The notes under the pieces: model-generated
The model's input: the letters and a program-made list of their open reading frames with translations, nothing else
Told to the model about the DNA's origin: nothing
Databases searched by the model: none
Assembly (NCBI GenBank): GCA_945835085.1
Contig: CAMAIG010000002.1
Span: 1 to 24,240 of the forward strand
Source: an uncultured Ruminococcus sp.
GTDB lineage: Bacteria > Bacillota > Clostridia > Oscillospirales > Ruminococcaceae
Direction: 5' to 3'
Length of the DNA stretch: 24,240 nt
In this document: in pieces, positions 11,389-24,240 of the stretch
Position numbering within the stretch: the stretch's first letter is position 1
Layout of the letters: every line of letters begins with the position of its first letter
Made by a program: the position numbers and the translations under genes

Positions 11389-14300
11389 ATGGCTATAGAC
11401 AAGAAAATAAAGGGCATTACCATTGAGCTGGACGGCGATACGAAAAAGCTTAACGACTCTTTTTCGGAGGTCGACAAAAAGGCAAAGGACATTGGGGCAA
11501 GCTTAAAGCTTGTTAATGAGCAATTAAAGCTTGACCCCAAAAATGCAGAGGCGGCGGCGCAGAAGCTTGTACTTTTACAGCAAAAGGCGGCTAACACCTC
11601 CGAAAAGCTTGAAACGCTTAAAAGTGTACAGGGGCAGATACAGCAGCAGTATCGGGACGGGGTCATTGATGAAAGTCAGTGGGTCGCTTTTCAGACAGAG
11701 CTTGCAAAGACCGAAAATCAGCTTAACAGCACTTACAGGCAGATTGAGAGGCTTTCGGGGGCAACAAACAATGCAAAAAAGGATATTGATAATGCTACCG
11801 AATCGACATCTAATTGGGCTGATGTTCTCAAAGGCAGTTTGCTTTCGGATGCAATAACAAACGGCTTGCAAGCTATGTCACAGGCTCTTGTTGATTTTGC
11901 AAAAAGCTCTGTTGAGGTCGGCAAGAATTTTGACAGCTCAATGTCTCAGGTTGCGGCTACTATGGGTATTCTTCCTCAGGGAGAAACCTTTGAGAAGCTT
12001 ACAGCGGCAGCGGAAGAAATGGGCGCAACTACCAAATATACGGCGGCACAGGCAGGAGATGCACTTAATTATCTTGCTCTTGCGGGATATAAAGCAGATG
12101 AAAGTATAGCGGCTCTTCCTACCGTGCTTAATCTTGCACAGGCAGGCGGTATGGAGCTTGCGGCAGCTTCTGACATGGTGACTGACAGTTTATCGGCTTT
12201 GGGTCTTGAACAGTCTCAGATGACAGAGTTTACCGACAAAATGGCTGTTACGGCTCAAAAGTCGAATACGTCCGTATCGCAGCTGGGAGAAGCTATATTG
12301 ACCATGGGCGCAACCGCAAAGGATATGAAAGGCGGTGTTACGGAACTTAATACAATGCTTGGCGTTCTTGCCGATAACGGTATCAAGGGCGCAGAGGGCG
12401 GCACAAAGCTTCGTAATGCATATTTAAGCCTTACAGCTCCTACAGACAAAGCAGCAGAAACGCTTGAAAAGCTTAAGGTAAGTGCTTATGATGCCAACGG
12501 TGCTGTAAGAGCTATGCCCGATGTTCTCAATGACTTTAACAACGCTCTTGCAGGCATGGAAGACCAAGAAAGAATTGACATTATAAGCACAATTTTTAAT
12601 GCAAGAGACATTGGAGCTGTAAATGCCCTTTTAGCAACATCATCGGACAGATACGATGAACTTGCCGGGTACATTGAAAATTCTACGGGAGCGGCTGAGC
12701 AGATGGCGGCTGTCATGAATGACAATGTGGAAGGTGCATTTGCAAGCGTTAACTCTGCGGCAGAGGCTTTTGAAAAGGCTGTTTATGATAAAATAAAAGA
12801 GCCATTGAAGGACGGGGCAAATGCTGTTGCGGAGCTTCTGAGAAGCATGACGGAAGGTCTTGACCCCGATACTGCGGAACAGATCATTGCAGATCTCGGA
12901 AATGCATTGATTGACGGTCTATCCAACACAGAAGATATGATAAGGCAAGCATCGGAATTTTTGATACCCGCTTTACTGTCTGGGATAAACGAACAGCTGC
13001 CGGGTGTTTCGGAAGAGGCGGGAAAGGTCATTGAGGTTTTCGTACTTGCTCTCATAACGGCACTGCCTTATCTGGCAGAGGGTGCTTTGTTGATCGTTGA
13101 AGGGCTTGTATCGGGTATTTCGGAAAATCTCCCCGAGCTTCTGCCTGTTGCCATCAAAGCGGCGAATACTTTTGTAAACGGTGTGCTTGACAATATCTCT
13201 ACAATTATAGATTTGGCAACACAACTTATTATTGCGCTTGCAGACGGCATTATTGAGGCTTTGCCCGAGATCTTGAAGACAGGTCCCACTATAATGATAA
13301 GGCTTGCAAGTGCGCTTATAAATGCAATACCCAAATTGTTGGAGGCTATCCCGAAAATACATAGTGCTATTATTGAGGCTCTTACATCTATTGACTGGAT
13401 AGAGACGGGCAAGGAGATGATAGCAAGTCTTTTAAACGCTTTATTACAGGCGGTGGAGAGTGCTAAAAATGCGTTTTTGTCTTTGGGTCAGACTGTTTTT
13501 GGGTATCTTTTCGGTGACGGCGGTGACGGGAGCGGCGCAAGCTACAGCGGGTCTTATTCTGGCGGCGGCGGTAAGGTCGGCAAGGTGGATGTTGCTGAAA
13601 ATACTGCTGCTATGTCGGGGTACAAAGAGGCTATTGACGGGGAGATCGAGACAATTGAGGCGGCGACTGCTGACCTTGAGACGGCGGCTGAACAGGCAGA
13701 AGATACTGTTGAGGAAACCGCTGTAGGGCTTGAAGAGGCTCTTGATGATCTTGACCATAAGCTTGCCACACATAAGATATCGGAGGCTGATTACTGGAAA
13801 CGGCGCAAAGAGGTTTTGGAAAAGTTCCGTGATGAAGAGTCGGAAGAGTGGTGGAAGGAATACGACAAGGTCACGGACTACTATGACAAGCTGGCTGAGA
13901 CCGAAAAGGCGGCTGCAAAAAAAGCGGAAAAGGAACGGGCAGATCTTGCAAAAGAATTGGCTGACAAAGCCAAAAAAGACAAGGAAGATGAAATTAAAAA
14001 AATTGAGGACAGTGCAAAAAATCTGCACCATAATGCTCAAATAAAGAACATCAACGGCGAATATTCCGACAGCGAATATTACGATTACATTGAGAATGTG
14101 CTGCTCCCTATGCTTGATAAGGAAAGCACGCTTTATCAACAATATGAAAAGGAAATTGCTGAAGGTCGTAAGAAAATCCGTGAGGAACGAAAAAAGCAGG
14201 ATGACGCCGATCTAAAGGAAAGTGAGGAATATAAAAAGAAGGCTGTTAAGGCTGCCGAAAGCGAGATAGATGCCATTTATGACACCTATGAGGCTAAATA

Positions 14301-19308: not shown

Positions 19309-19437
19309 ATGGCTGAGTTTTACGCATACCGCATTTTATGCGGAAAAACTACATACGCAAAGGTCCCCGCTAAGCTCAAGCCCGCTGTAAAGGTTGTTCT
19401 TACAGACATGGGGTATGAAGAGCTTTGTGAGGAGTAA
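19309..19437 (+). CDS. CD1375-family small phage protein
   Basis: A 42-residue protein with the pattern of the CD1375 family: an aromatic strand (FYAYRILCGK), then YAKVPAKLKPAVKVVLTDMG and a short acidic tail. ATG 19309 is two bases after the previous stop and has a strong GGAGGTGA site. Proteins of this family lie just before the lysis cassette in many Clostridia phages and have unknown function. A 6-bp hairpin CCGCAT/ATGCGG at 19329-19343 lies inside the gene. Confidence 0.78.
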   Translation: MAEFYAYRILCGKTTYAKVPAKLKPAVKVVLTDMGYEELCEE

Positions 19438-19454
19438 TCAAGGAGGATGTATCA

Positions 19455-19862
19455 ATGGACAGGCTTAAAATCTTTTTGGGCAGCATTATCACGGCATTAA
19501 GCGGATTTTTCGGGGGGCTTGACGGGATAATGTATGCACTGCTGCTGTGCATTACAGTCGACTACATCACGGGTGTAGCTGTGGCAATCAAGCGACATGA
19601 GCTGTCCTCCGAAATTGGCTTTTGGGGGCTTGTACGCAAGTGCTGCATCCTGCTGTTGGTGGGGGTGGGGCATTACATTGACGCCTACATAATCGGCAGC
19701 GGCGAGGTGTTTAGGGTGGCTGTGGCTCTCTATTACACGGGTAATGAGGGTGTGAGCCTCCTTGAAAACTGCGGCAATTTGGGGCTGCCTTTGCCGCCTA
19801 AGCTTATAGCGGTTATGAGGCAAATCAAGGGTAAAGGAGAGGATATTGATGGCAAAGACTAA
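19455..19862 (+). CDS. Phage holin, toxin secretion/lysis holin family
   Basis: A 135-residue membrane protein that should form the pore releasing the endolysin. It starts at ATG 19455 after AAGGAGGATG. Hydrophobic segments lie at about 9-45 (two passes, with GGLDGIMYALLLCITVDYITGVAVAI) and 65-80 (CCILLLVGVGHYIDAYI). The conserved DYITGVAVAIKRHELSSEIGF segment and the NEGVSLLENCGNLGLPLP region near 98-112 are hallmarks of the phi-LC3/Holin_4_1 type family. It overlaps the endolysin start by 14 bases. Confidence 0.93.
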   Translation: MDRLKIFLGSIITALSGFFGGLDGIMYALLLCITVDYITGVAVAIKRHELSSEIGFWGLVRKCCILLLVGVGHYIDAYIIGSGEVFRVAVALYYTGNEGVSLLENCGNLGLPLPPKLIAVMRQIKGKGEDIDGKD

Positions 19863-20544
19863 CACGGGGCTTGTAGAGTACGCTAAAGCACAGCTGGGAT
19901 TGCCGTATTGGTACGGCACGTTTGGAAACATAGGCACTGAGGCTCTTTACAAGAGCAAGAAAAAGCAGTATCCTAAGTACTACAATTGGGAGGGTACTGC
20001 CTATGATAATTTTGCATCTCAATACGGCAAGAGGGTGCATGACTGCGTTGGCTTGATTAAGGGCTATCTGTGGAGCGACAGCCCTACAGCAGTGCCAAAA
20101 TACAACGCTGCACAGGATGTATCTGCAAACGGTATGCGATCCAAATGCAAGGAGAGCGGCGTTATCAGCACTATGCCCGATATCCCCGGGGTGCTTGTTT
20201 TTATGGTGGGTCATGTGGGCGTTTACATCGGCGGCGGCTATGTCATTGAGGCACGGGGACATGAGTATGGTGTTGTAAAAACGGCTCTTAAATCCCGTCC
20301 GTGGCGGTGGTGGGGTAAGTGCCCTTACCTTGATTACGCCGATAGTGGTGCAACTGAGATCAAGCTAAAAGTTAAGAGCGGCTCATGGTATGTACGCAAT
20401 GCTCCTAACGTTGAGGGCAAGGTAATCAACGTTGTGGGCGGTGATACATATCTTTACGCCGATAGGGTTGACCCTGTCAGCGGGTGGTATCATGTGCCGA
20501 GCCTTGCGGGGTGGATATCCTGCAAGGCGGTTGACAGGGTATAA
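19849..20544 (+). CDS. Endolysin: NlpC/P60-type (C40) amidase/endopeptidase with SH3-like C-terminal domain
   Basis: A 231-residue cell-wall hydrolase. The catalytic cysteine is in HDCVGLI (Cys66) and the histidine in GHVGVYIGGG (His122), with a likely third residue in VIEARGH (Glu134). These are in the order of a C40 peptidase, cutting peptidoglycan stem peptides. Residues about 170-231 (KVKSGSWYVRNAP, WYHVPSLAGWISCKAV) form an SH3-type wall-binding domain. No signal peptide is visible, so export is through the holin. ATG 19849 follows AAAGGAGAGG. A strong terminator lies just after the stop. Confidence 0.92.
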   Translation: MAKTNTGLVEYAKAQLGLPYWYGTFGNIGTEALYKSKKKQYPKYYNWEGTAYDNFASQYGKRVHDCVGLIKGYLWSDSPTAVPKYNAAQDVSANGMRSKCKESGVISTMPDIPGVLVFMVGHVGVYIGGGYVIEARGHEYGVVKTALKSRPWRWWGKCPYLDYADSGATEIKLKVKSGSWYVRNAPNVEGKVINVVGGDTYLYADRVDPVSGWYHVPSLAGWISCKAVDRV

Positions 20545-20550
20545 AAATAA

Positions 20551-20581
20551 GGCTGTCGCAGAGATGCGGCAGCCTGTTTTT
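20551..20581. terminator. Bidirectional terminator between endolysin and the leftward HTH gene
   Basis: A 10-bp stem (GGCTGTCGCA/TGCGGCAGCC, one G-U, loop GAGA) at 20551-20574. On the + strand it is followed by TGTTTTTTATT; on the - strand by TTATTTTTAT. It ends the late operon from the left and the leftward operon from the right, so the two convergent units share it. Confidence 0.92.
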
Positions 20582-20583
20582 TA

Positions 20584-20922
20584 TTATATATCATCATCCC
20601 TTTCGCAGAATATGCTTATGCAAGCATATCCGATCAATTGCAAAGTGTATGACGGCGGTGTGCGCTTACCTCCCGCCCAATGCGCAGCGGTCTGTTTGGG
20701 GATATCAAACATCTTTGCGAAAGCGTATATGCTGAGACCTGTCTCGGCAACTATTGCGTTAAAATCCTCACGGCTTACCGCATGGATAATTCTAAACGCC
20801 TTGACAAGCCCATCGCCCGTGAACGGGCAGTCGGCGGGATAGCCATAGTCTGCAAGATGTTCTTCTGCCGTTGCGTAGGTCTTTGCATCGGCGATCATTG
20901 AAAGGTAGTTTTTGTAGGTCAT
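20584..20922 (-). CDS. Helix-turn-helix protein, last gene of the leftward operon
   Basis: A 112-residue protein with an N-terminal region (YLSMIADAKTYATAEEHLAD, YGYPADCPFTGD) of unknown role and a C-terminal HTH (DFNAIVAETGLSIYAFAKMF, then IPKQTAAHWAGGKRTPPSY). I have the impression that small HTH proteins of this build recur in Clostridia phages and mobile elements. ATG 20922 is preceded by AAAAGGAGGATAAATTA. Its place at the end of an operon of small orphan proteins resembles aca-type autoregulators. The direct repeats at the operon promoter are plausible targets. Confidence 0.75.
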   Translation of the reverse strand: MTYKNYLSMIADAKTYATAEEHLADYGYPADCPFTGDGLVKAFRIIHAVSREDFNAIVAETGLSIYAFAKMFDIPKQTAAHWAGGKRTPPSYTLQLIGYACISIFCERDDDI

Positions 20923-20948
20923 TAATTTATCCTCCTTTTAATTGTTAG

Positions 20949-20967
20949 ACGGTGCTGTCACCACCGC
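20949..20967 (-). ncRNA. Intergenic hairpin 1 of the leftward operon
   Basis: Stem GCGGTG/CACCGT with loop GTGACAG (read on the - strand), in the 54-base gap before the HTH gene. It is followed by TAACAA and then the ribosome-binding site. The loop and inner stem match hairpins 2 and 3. No T-tract follows, so it is not a terminator. Confidence 0.65.
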
Positions 20968-20976
20968 ATATTTATA

Positions 20977-21396
20977 TTAAAAATTAGAATAAAGATTAAG
21001 AGGAAAACCATCATAATCTTGTCTAAGCATTACAGTATCAAACAAACCATCTTTACCATCAACATGACAAGTTTTAGAAAGCTTAACATGAGTTTTTAAG
21101 ATACCATCTTTTGCTTGATCGAAAGTAATAATATCGGGAGATAGATATTTCTTTTCACACCAATATTCGAAGGTATATCGAACAAAGCTATCAAAATAAT
21201 CGGGATGCTGCTTAGGATTAACAGTAAAAAGATCAACAGAGATTTCACGATATTTAGAATTGGCACTTAAATCGGGACCATCTGTCTTAACCTTCAAAGC
21301 CCTTAAATAATCATAAACATCAGCTATAGGCATTGAAAGCATTTCGCTTTCGGAAATGACATCAATTTCATTTCCATGAAGAGTGTACATTTTCAT
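20977..21396 (-). CDS. Orphan small protein, third gene of the leftward operon
   Basis: A 139-residue protein from ATG 21396, chosen because AAAGGATGA lies about 8 bases upstream; ATG 21405 would overlap that site. Mixed composition, rich in Asp, Lys and Tyr, with a possible helix near 15-35 (SEMLSMPIADVYDYLRALKV) and strands later. No family is recognised. The DNA is visibly more AT-rich than the structural genes, suggesting separate acquisition. It is flanked on both sides by near-identical hairpins. An anti-defence or host-modifying role is inferred only from context. Confidence 0.6.
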   Translation of the reverse strand: MKMYTLHGNEIDVISESEMLSMPIADVYDYLRALKVKTDGPDLSANSKYREISVDLFTVNPKQHPDYFDSFVRYTFEYWCEKKYLSPDIITFDQAKDGILKTHVKLSKTCHVDGKDGLFDTVMLRQDYDGFPLNLYSNF

Positions 21397-21424
21397 TAAA
21401 ATCATCCTTTCGTTTTTTTGTTGT

Positions 21425-21449
21425 TAGGCAGTGCTGTCACCACCGCCTA
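21425..21449 (-). ncRNA. Intergenic hairpin 2 of the leftward operon
   Basis: On the - strand, TAGGCGGTG/CACTGCCTA with one G-U pair and loop GTGACAG. The stop codon of the upstream gene (21449-21447) is the first part of the stem. A run of A and a ribosome-binding site for the next gene follow. The outer stem differs from the other copies but remains paired. Confidence 0.7.
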
Positions 21450-21731
21450 TTCTGTTACCTTTAGGATTTTTACGATAAATTCATCCTCCTCCCAATTGAA
21501 AGTTAACTCGATTGTTTTAATAGGCTTATCAGCACCTTCGGTATAATACTTAACAGTGATGATATACCATACATCATCACGTCCCTTGTCAGACTCGAAG
21601 TAATCTTCAAGCCAACTTACGATGCCTTCCATGTTTTCGGTTGTGTCTATAAGCTGCTCGCTCTCAGTCCATGTCGCATCGTAACCGGATCCGATATCAT
21701 ACTTACTGATATCAATGATTTCTTTAAACAT
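21447..21731 (-). CDS. Orphan acidic small protein, second gene of the leftward operon
   Basis: A 94-residue strongly acidic protein (ESEQLIDTTENMEGIVSWLE, EDYFESDKGRDD) with beta strands in the second half (VWYIITVKYYTEG, IKTIELTFNWEEDEF). ATG 21731 follows GAAAGGAAAG. Small acidic proteins near phage anti-defence loci sometimes mimic nucleic acid; that is an analogy, not evidence of function. Its stop codon lies inside hairpin 2. Confidence 0.6.
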   Translation of the reverse strand: MFKEIIDISKYDIGSGYDATWTESEQLIDTTENMEGIVSWLEDYFESDKGRDDVWYIITVKYYTEGADKPIKTIELTFNWEEDEFIVKILKVTE

Positions 21732-21782
21732 AAATTACTTTCCTTTCTTGCGGTTTAGGTGGGTTATTATTTGTTATGTTGT

Positions 21783-21807
21783 AAAGCGGTGCTGTCACCA
21801 CCGCCTT
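21783..21807 (-). ncRNA. Intergenic hairpin 3 of the leftward operon
   Basis: On the - strand, AAGGCGGTG/CACCGCTTT (one G-U) with loop GTGACAG, just after the first gene of the operon. Same loop and inner stem as copies 1 and 2. The outer pairs differ in sequence but stay complementary, so the structure rather than only the sequence is kept. Confidence 0.7.
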
Positions 21808-21812
21808 TTAGA

Positions 21813-22016
21813 TTACTTAGCCAATACTATTTCGCTGTAAATCTTTCTGAGAGTGCCATTCTGATTCCATCTGTGACCGACCTGTTCGAAGCCTTCATTT
21901 GTAATCTTGTAAACGTAAGCACCATTCCATGAGCCTCTGTGCGCTACAGAAACTTCAATCTCTTCTCCTTTCTTAAGATGATTAGAGATCTTACCCATCA
22001 TTGCTTCTCTTGTCAT
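21813..22016 (-). CDS. Orphan small basic protein, first gene of the leftward operon
   Basis: A 67-residue protein. ATG 22016 lies 9 bases after AAAGGA; a TTG at 22025 would overlap that site. The sequence shows an N-terminal helix (MTREAMMGKISNHLKKGEEI), then short strands (VSVAHRGSW, AYVYKITNEGFEQV) and a basic tail. No family is recognised. It is first behind a consensus promoter and so should be the most strongly expressed gene of the operon. Confidence 0.6.
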   Translation of the reverse strand: MTREAMMGKISNHLKKGEEIEVSVAHRGSWNGAYVYKITNEGFEQVGHRWNQNGTLRKIYSEIVLAK

Positions 22017-22065
22017 ACCAATCAATCCTTTCTGTGTTCGGGCTTATTACCCTTTCCATGATTAT

Positions 22066-22094
22066 ATTATACCGCATTGGAGACTATATGTCAA
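22066..22094 (-). promoter_or_regulatory. Consensus sigma-A promoter of the leftward operon
   Basis: On the - strand, TTGACA (22094-22089) and TATAAT (22071-22066) are separated by exactly 17 bp. Both hexamers match the consensus perfectly. The start site should be near 22059, about 40 bases before the first gene. Such a strong promoter fits a gene set expressed at once on infection or constitutively in the prophage, subject to repression. Confidence 0.9.
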
Positions 22095-22124
22095 GTGATT
22101 TTTTAAAAATAGTCTGCATTGGAG
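22074..22124. promoter_or_regulatory. Operator-like repeats over the leftward promoter
   Basis: GCATTGGAG occurs at 22074-22082, between the -10 and -35, and again at 22116-22124. The two starts are 42 bp apart, four helical turns. AGACTAT (22081-22087) and ATAGTCT (22109-22115) form an inverted pair that brackets the -35. The layout suits binding by the operon's own HTH protein. Role inferred. Confidence 0.55.
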
Positions 22125-22174
22125 TATATTTGTATACTTGTACAAAAATTATATTTTTTGTTGGTAATATGATA

Positions 22175-22204
22175 CAAAAAATCCTGCCTTTGGTGGGGCA
22201 GGAT
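22175..22204 (-). terminator. Leftward rho-independent terminator
   Basis: A perfect 8-bp stem ATCCTGCC/GGCAGGAT (22181-22204) with an 8-base loop. Reading leftward it is followed by a T-tract (TTTTT). It would stop integrase-side transcription before the moron operon promoter. Confidence 0.85.
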
Positions 22205-22244
22205 AAACGATCATTTAATTTGCGGCAGACTATGATTAAATTTA

Positions 22245-22265
22245 TTTTGCAACTATTTTGCAACC
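22245..22265 (+). repeat. Integrase arm-type sites, left arm (candidate)
   Basis: Two copies of TTTTGCAAC at 22245-22253 and 22256-22264, 11 bp apart and in the same orientation, about 130 bp left of the att core. Identical motifs lie to the right of the core. The paired layout is typical of arm-binding sites for tyrosine integrases. Confidence 0.6.
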
Positions 22266-22330
22266 TATTTTAAAAAAATCAAGAAAAATTAGCGCAAAAA
22301 ACAAAAATATTAAGATCTACAAATATAAAT

Positions 22331-22377
22331 AAAAACCGTCTCAAACAACGCACTATAGCGGTTTGATACGGTTTTTT
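22331..22377. terminator. Bidirectional hairpin terminator beside the att core
   Basis: AAAAACCGT pairs with ACGGTTTTT, with an inner stem TCAAAC/GTTTGA, giving a long hairpin with T-tracts on both strands. It lies four bases from the CCA end of the tRNA fragment. It can end transcription of the tRNA restored by integration. Confidence 0.75.
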
Positions 22378-22380
22378 ATA

Positions 22381-22429
22381 TGGTCGAGGTGACGTGATTC
22401 GAACACGCGGCCTCTTCGTCCCGAACGAA
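22381..22429 (-). other. attP core: 3' half of a tRNA-Pro(CGG) gene
   Basis: On the - strand the sequence follows the second half of tRNA-Pro: anticodon loop TTCGGGA (anticodon CGG, G37), 3' anticodon stem CGAAG, variable AGGCC, T-arm GCGTG-TTCGAAT-CACGT, acceptor strand CACCTCG, discriminator A and CCA. The 5' anticodon stem is TTCG preceded by G where C is needed, and no D-arm or 5' acceptor follows, so this is not a functional tRNA. It is the identity block through which the adjacent integrase should recombine with a host tRNA-Pro gene, restoring it. Confidence 0.85.
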
Positions 22430-22479
22430 CAGAAAAACGGGGCGTAATCAACGTAGGCAAGCCATTTGCACACATGACA

Positions 22480-22498
22480 TTGCAACCATTTTGCAACC
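22480..22498 (+). repeat. Integrase arm-type sites, right arm (candidate)
   Basis: TTGCAACC at 22480-22487 and TTTTGCAACC at 22489-22498, with TTGCAAC starts 11 bp apart, as in the left arm. They lie between the att core and the end of the integrase gene. Confidence 0.6.
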
Positions 22499-22508
22499 AA
22501 TAATTGCA

Positions 22509-23678
22509 TTATCCCATTTTATCGAAAAATTCGTCAAGCTTGGACATCTGATTGGTTTTGTACTCATCGTCAAGATGTGTGTATATATCCATAGTAGTTT
22601 GGATATCGGCATGACCTGCTTGCTTTGATGCGGTGATAACATCAACTCCTGCCATATACATATTCGTGATAAAGGTATGTCTGAGCCAATGCGCAGTAAA
22701 GTTCGGGATAACCATTGGTATTTTTTCTCGGGCAAACCTACTTGACGGCTTTTTGTAAGATCTTTTATTGCCGTCCTTATCGGTAATAAAAATCCCGGAA
22801 AAATCACCGAATTTAAAATTAAGTTCACACATATAGCTCTCCCACAATGATCTCCAGCTGCCGCTTGACATTACAGATCCGTCGGGAGCGGGTACTACAA
22901 GCATATTGGTTGCTTTGGCCTGTTCAGCCGATAGATAATCACAAAGCACCCGAGGGATATTTACAGTCCTCATGCCCGCCTTTGTCTTGGTACGGTGCTT
23001 GATCTCGGGCTTGCCGTCAACCATAACCATAGCCTTGTTTACAGTTATACGGCGGTTTGCAAAATCTATATCACGCCAGGTAAGAGCAAGCAGCTCGCCT
23101 CTCCTCAATCCAGCATACATCATTATCATTGCGCCGATATGTGCTCTGTGATCTGTGGGAGCGGATATCCATGATTGTTCCTCTTTAGTCAAGGCTCTAC
23201 GTTCTTCCGCAGGTTCGACTTGCGGGATAATCACGCCTTTAGCCGGGTTAAAATCCATAACACGGCTTACGATCGCATAATCGCAAATCTGCGAAAAAAC
23301 TGATTTATACTCTTTCAATGTCTTTTCGGCGGCACCGTCCTCAAAGGCTTTATTAATTATATCCTGGATATCGGCAACTGTAAGCTTTGATATGGGGATA
23401 TAATGCAGATCGGACATTTTATCAATGCGATATGAGTAAGACTTATATCTGCCATCAGATACGCTAAGCTTTTTCAGAGCAAGCCAACGGTTAGCCCAAA
23501 ATAAAAAAGTCTCTTTTTCTGCGCTTACATCAATGCCCTTTCCAAGCTTTAATTTGACATCCTGCACCTTAGCGTCAAGCTCTTTAGGAGTATGTGCCGA
23601 GAGCCATTTGTATTTGCCATCACCTAGCGATATCTTTGTACGGTACAATCCGTTTGCCTGCTTAGAGTATTTTGGCAT
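22509..23678 (-). CDS. int: Tyrosine recombinase (phage integrase)
   Basis: A 389-residue integrase that catalyses site-specific recombination between attP and the host tRNA gene. An N-terminal arm-binding domain (about 1-50, LYRTKISLGDGKYKWLSAHT) precedes a core-binding SAM-like domain (55-150) and the catalytic domain. Active-site residues are visible: Arg192 in GLRRGE, a Lys in HRTKTKAG around 231-233, His330 and Arg333 in HWLRH, His356 in AGHAD, and the nucleophile Tyr366 in MDIYTHL. ATG 23678 follows AAGGGAGGAC. The gene ends about 80 bases from the att core, the usual arrangement. Confidence 0.96.
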   Translation of the reverse strand: MPKYSKQANGLYRTKISLGDGKYKWLSAHTPKELDAKVQDVKLKLGKGIDVSAEKETFLFWANRWLALKKLSVSDGRYKSYSYRIDKMSDLHYIPISKLTVADIQDIINKAFEDGAAEKTLKEYKSVFSQICDYAIVSRVMDFNPAKGVIIPQVEPAEERRALTKEEQSWISAPTDHRAHIGAMIMMYAGLRRGELLALTWRDIDFANRRITVNKAMVMVDGKPEIKHRTKTKAGMRTVNIPRVLCDYLSAEQAKATNMLVVPAPDGSVMSSGSWRSLWESYMCELNFKFGDFSGIFITDKDGNKRSYKKPSSRFAREKIPMVIPNFTAHWLRHTFITNMYMAGVDVITASKQAGHADIQTTMDIYTHLDDEYKTNQMSKLDEFFDKMG

Positions 23679-23734
23679 AATAGTCCTCCCTTATATCTTG
23701 ATTGGGGATTTTTTATATTCCTATATATCATTTT

Positions 23735-23765
23735 CGCTCCCGAATTATCGGGAGCGGTTTTTCTT
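23735..23765 (+). terminator. Rightward hairpin terminator between repressor and integrase
   Basis: A perfect 9-bp stem CGCTCCCGA/TCGGGAGCG with loop ATTA followed by GTTTTTCTTT on the + strand. On the - strand, the direction of both flanking genes, the hairpin is followed by AAAATG and lacks a T-tract. Its natural direction is therefore against the genes around it. Confidence 0.7.
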
Positions 23766-23782
23766 TACTTTGTACGATACCA

Positions 23783-24211
23783 CTATACTGCGTCTTTTTC
23801 TTGAGGTGTGCGGGCATCATCTTCAAGCTTGCCGCAATCGGTGGTTTCAATTTCCGTATCGGAGCTTTCTTCCATCGTTTCGGCAACAGCTTTATGCAGA
23901 AATTCCATGAGATCGGAGCGCATTTCCTTCGGAAGATTAACATAGCCTTCAAAAATCTTTTTTTCAAAGGCTGACATATTAAATTCCGATGCAAGCTTAT
24001 CAATGGTAGTCTGTTCTCTCTTTGACCTTCCTAGCAGATAGTCAATTGAAACAGAAAACATATCGGCAATATTACATAATAGTTCATTTTTTGGTTCGCT
24101 TACTCCCTGCTCATATGTCTGCCATGCCCTCAATGTAATACCAAGTTTGTCAGCACATTCTTTTTGTGTCATATTTGTTTTCTCACGTGCAATTTTTATG
24201 TTGTTTGTCAT
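23783..24211 (-). CDS. XRE/CI-like phage repressor
   Basis: A 142-residue DNA-binding protein. ATG 24211 has AAAGGAAGTGA upstream; a GTG at 24220 would overlap that site. The N-terminal 65 residues form a classic HTH_3 domain (NMTQKECADKLGITLRAWQT, then YEQGVSEPKNELLCNIADMF and DYLLGRSKRE). The middle has a helical region (MSAFEKKIFEGYVNLPKEMR), and the tail is acidic and probably disordered (EESSDTEIETTDCGKLEDD). There is no S24 peptidase domain, so it is not a self-cleaving LexA-type repressor. Position beside int fits a lysogeny regulator. Confidence 0.85.
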   Translation of the reverse strand: MTNNIKIAREKTNMTQKECADKLGITLRAWQTYEQGVSEPKNELLCNIADMFSVSIDYLLGRSKREQTTIDKLASEFNMSAFEKKIFEGYVNLPKEMRSDLMEFLHKAVAETMEESSDTEIETTDCGKLEDDARTPQEKDAV

Positions 24212-24240
24212 ATTAGTCACTTCCTTTCTTTTGTATAGTT

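Follow-up and report, generated by a model that had tools for sequence, protein, structure and literature searches.

A candidate counter-defence operon with a proposed Aca-like regulator and repeated intergenic hairpins at the putative att end of a Ruminococcus phage contig

The 24,240-base contig C2 of an incomplete metagenome-assembled genome (MAG) of an uncultured Ruminococcus sp. (2.17 Mb, 420 contigs) was analyzed whole and is referred to here as the window. It carries a phage in which a leftward unit of four genes lies between an NlpC/P60 lysin gene and an integrase gene. In the direction of transcription, the open reading frames encode three orphan proteins of 67 residues (21813-22016, counted from ATG), 94 residues (21447-21731) and 139 residues (20977-21396), which we call the cargo, followed by a helix-turn-helix (HTH) protein of 112 residues (20584-20922). 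All four are on the minus strand, with gaps of 81, 50 and 54 bp. The third cargo gene gives 139 residues from an ATG with a Shine-Dalgarno sequence and 142 residues from its first ATG. Family searches with the 67-residue protein gave nothing below E 0.1. For the 94-residue protein, a single non-identical relative (P0006, 87%) was found, along with an identical entry representing five contigs (P0005), and for the 139-residue protein one relative (P0004, 96%). No relative of the 94- or 67-residue protein was found in the viral_contigs collection, and the three proteins are mutually dissimilar by blastp at E up to 1. A match of the 139-residue protein to the PDB sequence of designed PPR proteins covers 24 residues and was judged an artefact.

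The operon is preceded by a sigma-70 promoter, TTGACA-17-TATAAT (22094-22066, minus strand), that agrees with the consensus at 12 of 12 positions. It is the only such perfect site among 19 promoter-like sites in 19400-24240, where shuffled sequences give 13.0 (sd 4.1). Two operator-like palindromes accompany it on the same strand: a proximal copy with a CAATG core within the -35/-10 spacer (22069-22087; repeat D8), with counterparts in the related loci L043, L044 and L112 described below, and a distal copy (22109-22127) about 42 bp upstream. Mapped as repeats, they lie at 22074-22091 and 22116-22133, 42 bp apart. A terminator-like hairpin between the lysin and HTH genes (20550-20575, scored on the plus strand with 11 pairs and a T tail) would serve the leftward operon, and the terminator scan places another between the integrase gene and the cargo promoter (22181-22204, minus strand). 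Nine terminator-like sites were found in all, compared to 4.3 in shuffled sequences. Scanning viral contigs with the operator pattern gave 20 matches, none seen upstream of an HTH operon and all judged to be chance, so the operator pattern alone cannot locate such operons. These results agree with a preliminary description of the locus as a leftward operon of three unrelated small proteins and a terminal HTH gene behind a perfect promoter with repeated operator-like motifs; its remark that the cargo resembles no nameable family also held in profile and PDB sequence searches. Its placement of the operon between the lysis cassette and attP stands as far as the lysin and integrase flanks are concerned, and the attachment (att) site is suggested by a match to a tRNA-Pro gene.

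A feature absent from that description is a set of three near-identical hairpins, one in each gap, behind each cargo gene. They share the consensus GGCGGTGGTGACAGCACCGCC followed by a TAACAA-like sequence, and none would be expected by chance (100 shuffles). All are on the minus strand. Copy 1 (20949-20967) has a stem of 6 bp and lies 9 nt past the stop codon (-8.7 kcal/mol, z -1.9), copy 2 (21425-21449) has a 9-bp stem that begins in the stop codon of the 94-residue frame (-14.4 kcal/mol, z -4.4), and copy 3 (21783-21807) has a 9-bp stem with the loop GUGACAG, 5 nt after the stop codon (-13.7 kcal/mol, z -3.4). The opposite strand folds with z of -0.6, -1.5 and -1.7 for copies 1 to 3. Where the copies differ, the transcript strand forms G-U pairs and the other strand A-C mismatches, and the outermost pair is changed on both sides, being U-A in copy 2 and A-U in copy 3. 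The G-U pairing and the two-sided change speak for an RNA element rather than a DNA operator; a test would need more copies than these three. The hairpins have no T tract on the sense strand, and two of the three score weakly as plus-strand terminators.

Across 396 genomes of the family, the hairpin pattern without mismatches occurs only as the window's three copies; with three mismatches it occurs in five other places, and the reversed control gave one match. A fourth hairpin-like place, with one mismatch in the loop, lies on contig C84 of the window's own genome. The idea of a widespread element was set aside: the exact 17-mer was found in eight viral contigs with flanks unlike the operon gaps (diverged viral copies were not sought), and in L008, the one of the eight for which reading frames were listed, it lies inside them. 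An integron attC site was also rejected, as the core-like GCCTAAC is on the wrong arm when the sequence is read against the attC motif. A known parallel is the start-associated sequences (SAS/ESAS) of cluster K mycobacteriophages, described as a 13-nt GGGATAGGAGCCC immediately upstream of start sites (PMC3203893). Like those, the window hairpins are short, repeated, located in gaps before unrelated genes and of nearly uniform orientation. Unlike them, they have another sequence and 6-9 bp stems, and they sit behind stop codons, 0-9 nt past the stop and 26-51 nt before the next start.

The 112-residue protein, a relative of PHROG 25567, is proposed to be the autorepressor of the operon. Its identity as an HTH protein is backed by an AlphaFold2 model (mean predicted local distance difference test score, pLDDT, 93.9) and by HTH-type PHROGs at weak E. 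At its N-terminus the model shows an additional helical half (about residues 1-50). No solved chain matches the sequence at E up to 1, and structure comparison places anti-CRISPR-associated (Aca) proteins among the nearest folds.

A first scan of GTDB with the single protein as query found no relative. Searching with an alignment, 30 of the 396 family genomes have a match at E 0.001 or better, nine of 384 genomes of the order (a set that overlaps the family set) match at 1e-7, and a scan of GTDB contigs gives three loci, two of them the same as L043 and L044. The full-length relatives belong to short operons whose cargo differs from the window's. In L043, directly behind a holin (by reading), the order is 66 residues, HTH and 263 residues, the last an HNH endonuclease by PHROGs that is related to a protein in L047. 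L044, near cell-wall-type genes (by reading), encodes 130, 172 and 97 residues, HTH and 193 residues, and L112, directly behind an endolysin (by reading), encodes 99 and 152 residues and HTH. The 97-residue protein of L044 is related (E 8e-5) to a 154-residue protein of L112 that is encoded on the opposite strand, behind the HTH gene. The window's cargo is dissimilar to the cargo of these relatives.

The promoter regions of the window, L112, L043 and L044 align, with a CAATG/CATTG core in the spacer and a second core upstream. Among nine HTH loci that we chose, six have the core within the spacer of a strong promoter (the window, L043, L044, L112, L049 and L316), compared to a background of 5.5% per 23 nt; since the motif was derived from the first three, the independent count is three of six. 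L311 has another palindrome. A stricter promoter-with-core scan of 37 HTH loci gave five matches: the window (L013), L043 (L014), L049 (L020) and unrelated sites in L036 and on the minus strand of L316. It missed L044 because the promoter lies beyond the end of that short locus, and it missed L112 and L316's own promoter because their cores are CCATTGA and GCAATGC, respectively.

One full-length relative (27% over 114 residues, E 9e-13) is found in G713, a genome in one contig of 4.0 Mb. Its locus (L311) runs leftward behind a prophage amidase (Pfam) and encodes 117 residues, 57 residues, HTH, 277 residues and 172 residues. The 277-residue protein (G713:C1:580759-581592; L311:2760-3593) is a type I-C Cas7 (Pfam E 7e-69; PADLOC Cas7c 5e-86). 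Pfam searches of G713 found two Cas7 and one Cas8c; the other Cas7 is together with the Cas8c, 0.95 Mb away, and the prophage protein is 50% identical to this Cas7 of the host's own I-C genes. No other cas gene was seen in 565,000-600,000 of G713 in the gene list, which was read rather than searched with profiles. The Cas5 mimic AcrIB3 is a precedent for a Cas homologue that acts as an anti-CRISPR (Katz et al. 2024, cited in the review PMC13131331). Taken with this precedent, the prophage Cas7c is likely an anti-CRISPR, suggesting that, at this one locus, such an inhibitor is carried by an operon built the same way and with a regulator of the same family. This lends indirect support to the counter-defence reading. 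As with solitary phage Cas subunits that act as anti-CRISPRs, a lone Cas7c follows the HTH relative in a prophage, and the host encodes I-C genes of its own; the difference is that Cas7c belongs to the relative and is absent from the window operon.

The genes, promoter, operator repeats and hairpins are present in the window, and the same promoter region and HTH gene occur elsewhere with different cargo. We are fairly sure that this is an autorepressed operon of swappable cargo with an Aca-like autorepressor. As a whole, the locus is best explained, with moderate confidence, as a self-contained, autorepressed accessory operon at the att end whose cargo serves counter-defence. The perfect promoter would fire when naked phage DNA enters the cell, producing a burst of the three small cargo proteins. 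The HTH product would then bind the two palindromic CAATG-core operators and shut the operon down, as an Aca protein does. The cargo would most likely be a counter-defence set, swapped gene by gene between phages, and the hairpins behind each gene would lie at the joints, with a probable effect on the mRNA, in processing or in translation of the next gene. A counter-defence role for the cargo, assigned by association only, is on balance the probable one, and it is plausible that the three window proteins are inhibitors of host defence.

Like operons of anti-CRISPR (Acr) and Aca genes (Aca1, Aca7, Aca10), the window operon is short and on one strand, it combines small orphans with an HTH protein under 150 residues, its promoter has palindromes where an autorepressor would sit, and Aca proteins are among the nearest folds. 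Unlike them, its HTH protein has the extra N-terminal half, hairpins are repeated between the genes, and no known Acr homologue was found (no Acr database was searched). AcaFinder (PMC9765179) asks for one strand, gaps under 250 bp and proteins under 200 residues, and for an HTH protein under 150 residues with a Pfam HTH match of E below 1e-3 over 40% of the model. The sizes and gaps of the window operon fall within these limits; the HTH protein fits in size and not in its HTH_3 match. The preliminary reading of the locus as an acr-aca operon is partly supported: the homologous operons and the Cas7c-adjacent HTH relative back its layout, regulator and swappable cargo, and the three proteins match no inhibitor family in the collections searched. 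It had also asked whether homologues of the HTH gene recur beside small variable genes, and the full-length relatives do.

Several observations weigh against a counter-defence operon of this kind. Searches of Pfam, PHROGs, NCBIfam, PADLOC and PDB sequences assign none of the three cargo proteins to a functional family, whether anti-CRISPR, anti-restriction or other (a dedicated Acr database was not searched). The HTH_3 match has E 0.074, short of the curated cut-off, and the likeness to Aca proteins has a middling Z and is tied with that to HigA antitoxins. The HTH gene is rare, with no other copy in 20 genomes of the genus and none in two viral_contigs scans. In L045 a promoter lies 197 nt away and lacks the core, and L047 has none; L312, L313 and L315 also lack a promoter with core, and the match in L314 overlaps its own HTH reading frame. 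The HTH genes of L045 and L046 appear to stand alone among chromosomal genes. Finally, a single locus supplies the Cas7c link; it comes from a different family of the order, and the palindrome at its promoter is another one.

If the operon instead served lysogenic conversion or superinfection exclusion, its proteins would act on the lysogen or on incoming relatives, and the HTH protein would set a low steady level of expression. The att-end position and a promoter of its own between terminator-like sites would fit any such 'moron' unit, as would the lack of anti-defence homology in the window. However, a perfect promoter under autorepression would suit a burst followed by shut-off rather than steady expression, and the Cas7c-bearing relative and the HNH-endonuclease-like gene in L043 point to cargo for DNA conflict; we consider this reading unlikely. 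A toxin-antitoxin module, with one small protein as the toxin and the terminal HTH protein as a HigA-like antitoxin and autorepressor, would account for the HTH-last order, the two operator-like palindromes and a fold as near to HigA2 as to Aca proteins, all of which recall HigBA. The window differs from HigBA in that neither a HigB-family toxin beside the HTH gene nor any other toxin family among the cargo was found (Pfam, NCBIfam and PADLOC). Moreover, the cargo changes while the HTH gene stays, yet an antitoxin must match its toxin, which makes this module improbable.

Another alternative is that the HTH protein is a general small regulator of mobile elements in Clostridia, in which case its position would say nothing about cargo function. 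Among the rows listed from the family-genome search, 26 of 34 match the HTH half only (starting at profile position 43 or later), and the HTH genes of the order-level loci L312, L313 and L315 adjoin serine recombinases (by reading), as would suit such a regulator, as would the apparently solitary genes of L045 and L046. In contrast, the full-length relatives L043, L044, L112 and L311 are in short operons with varied cargo, and L043, L112 and L311 lie directly behind a holin or endolysin (by reading; the L311 amidase by Pfam). We give this alternative little weight and retain the autorepressed counter-defence operon as our explanation.

The gaps of the related operons contain a different element. 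A GCTGWCCTAWCGGCNNGACGGGGAG-like sequence is found twice in L112 (1260-1297 and 1763-1800), twice in L044 (one at 14150-14187 on the minus strand; one of the two is weak, E 0.06) and once in L043. The best match in the window is chance-like (E 0.6), and none is present in its genome when up to three mismatches are allowed. The pattern occurs in at least 120 stretches of viral contigs, including loci L164-L243 (six copies in L222), and similar sequence is found in the isolates Ruminococcus phage RG-TP1 and Hungatella phage CH17P1. The first 80 loci contain 88 sites; a start codon lies within 75 nt in 85 of these (median 16 nt), opening frames with a median of 79 residues, and the stop of a long frame lies within 150 nt upstream in 83 (median 7 nt). 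We read the element as an H-type pseudoknot upstream of the Shine-Dalgarno sequence, with covariation in both helices. A relaxed pattern yields 154 sites. In these, loop position 5 is paired with tail position 22 throughout, as C-G (143), G-C (8), U-A (2) or U-G (1), and the outer stem pair is G-C (150), C-G (3) or A-C (1). When 110 sites were aligned by a first-helix model, eight cells were changed on both sides, compared to 0.2 in shuffles and at most three in slid versions. Against this, a +3 slide has a higher covariation score (0.056 vs 0.045) and one second-helix cell is unpaired.

The families downstream of the element are scattered. Among 99 proteins, matches spread over 52 PHROGs at 1e-5, of which the commonest recurs in four, and over 22 Pfam families at 1e-4, with no family in more than three. 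Regulators, anti-repressors and gamma-glutamyl cyclotransferases are represented, as is one DarA_C, a family named for defence against restriction. With three mismatches, 85 of the 396 family genomes match and the reversed control also matches in many, so the evidence used here is confined to rows with zero or one mismatch and the viral loci. At five of the seven family-genome loci listed (L284:8042-8284, L285:5263-5451, L287:6877-7092, L289:4602-4946 and L290:4996-5190), an opposite-strand gene for a short, alike protein, which we take to be perhaps a ribbon-helix-helix protein, lies beside the element-bearing small genes. Rfam 15 gave no pseudoknot match in L112, L222 or L048 at E up to 1 (L048 was not checked for the element), nor in six loci at the gathering cut-off. 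The pseudoknot did not turn up in literature searches; a catalogue of thousands of candidate RNAs (PMC8040213) might contain it. Tentatively, and with more doubt than confidence, the pseudoknot may be a new RNA family, and counter-defence operons of Clostridia phages may have a dedicated RNA element at every gene joint: in the relatives and many other phages the pseudoknot, some 16 nt ahead of the start codon, and here an unrelated hairpin in the equivalent gap. Such elements would let new small genes plug in with correct, possibly co-regulated translation, the HTH protein controlling transcription.

Around the operon, the late genes of the window run rightward and end in a holin (Pfam Phage_holin_4_1, E 1e-37) and the NlpC/P60 lysin (19846-20544), for which close relatives were found in one viral contig. 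On the opposite side, the integrase (22509-23678) and an HTH_3 repressor (Pfam) run leftward. The 3' half of a tRNA-Pro gene (22374-22429, minus strand), 91% to part of the whole tRNA-Pro gene in MT837161.1 (recognized by reading), is the putative att core of a temperate tailed phage. ARAGORN detects no complete tRNA in the window, and a search of the incomplete MAG for an attB copy found none. The contig carries both the lysis genes and the integrase, and the putative att core lies between them, which suggests that the assembly probably contains the phage in an excised or circular form; the two ends of the contig show no overlap. DNA searches matched just the tRNA part in the phage collection and nothing in the plasmid collection. 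The integrase matches 41 of the 396 family genomes at 1e-30; 20 of these stretches were fetched, and the eight listed by gene stop short of the cargo end. Elsewhere in the window, 1692-1952 contains a short in-frame tandem repeat (unit LLNTQNA, about five copies, from the list of reading frames), and the small cysteine-containing proteins encoded by adjoining frames at 399-692 and 711-929 resemble each other, apparently through tandem duplication.

If the explanation is correct, the HTH family would be a marker of counter-defence islands in phages of gut Clostridia, and the three new orphan proteins, together with those of the relatives, would be candidates to test. The hairpins here and the covarying pseudoknot in the relatives suggest how phages may keep a cargo operon open to new genes. 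Repeated intergenic elements also provide a second way to locate these genes, by sequence, and the pseudoknot, if it is real, would extend it to accessory and anti-defence genes across phages.
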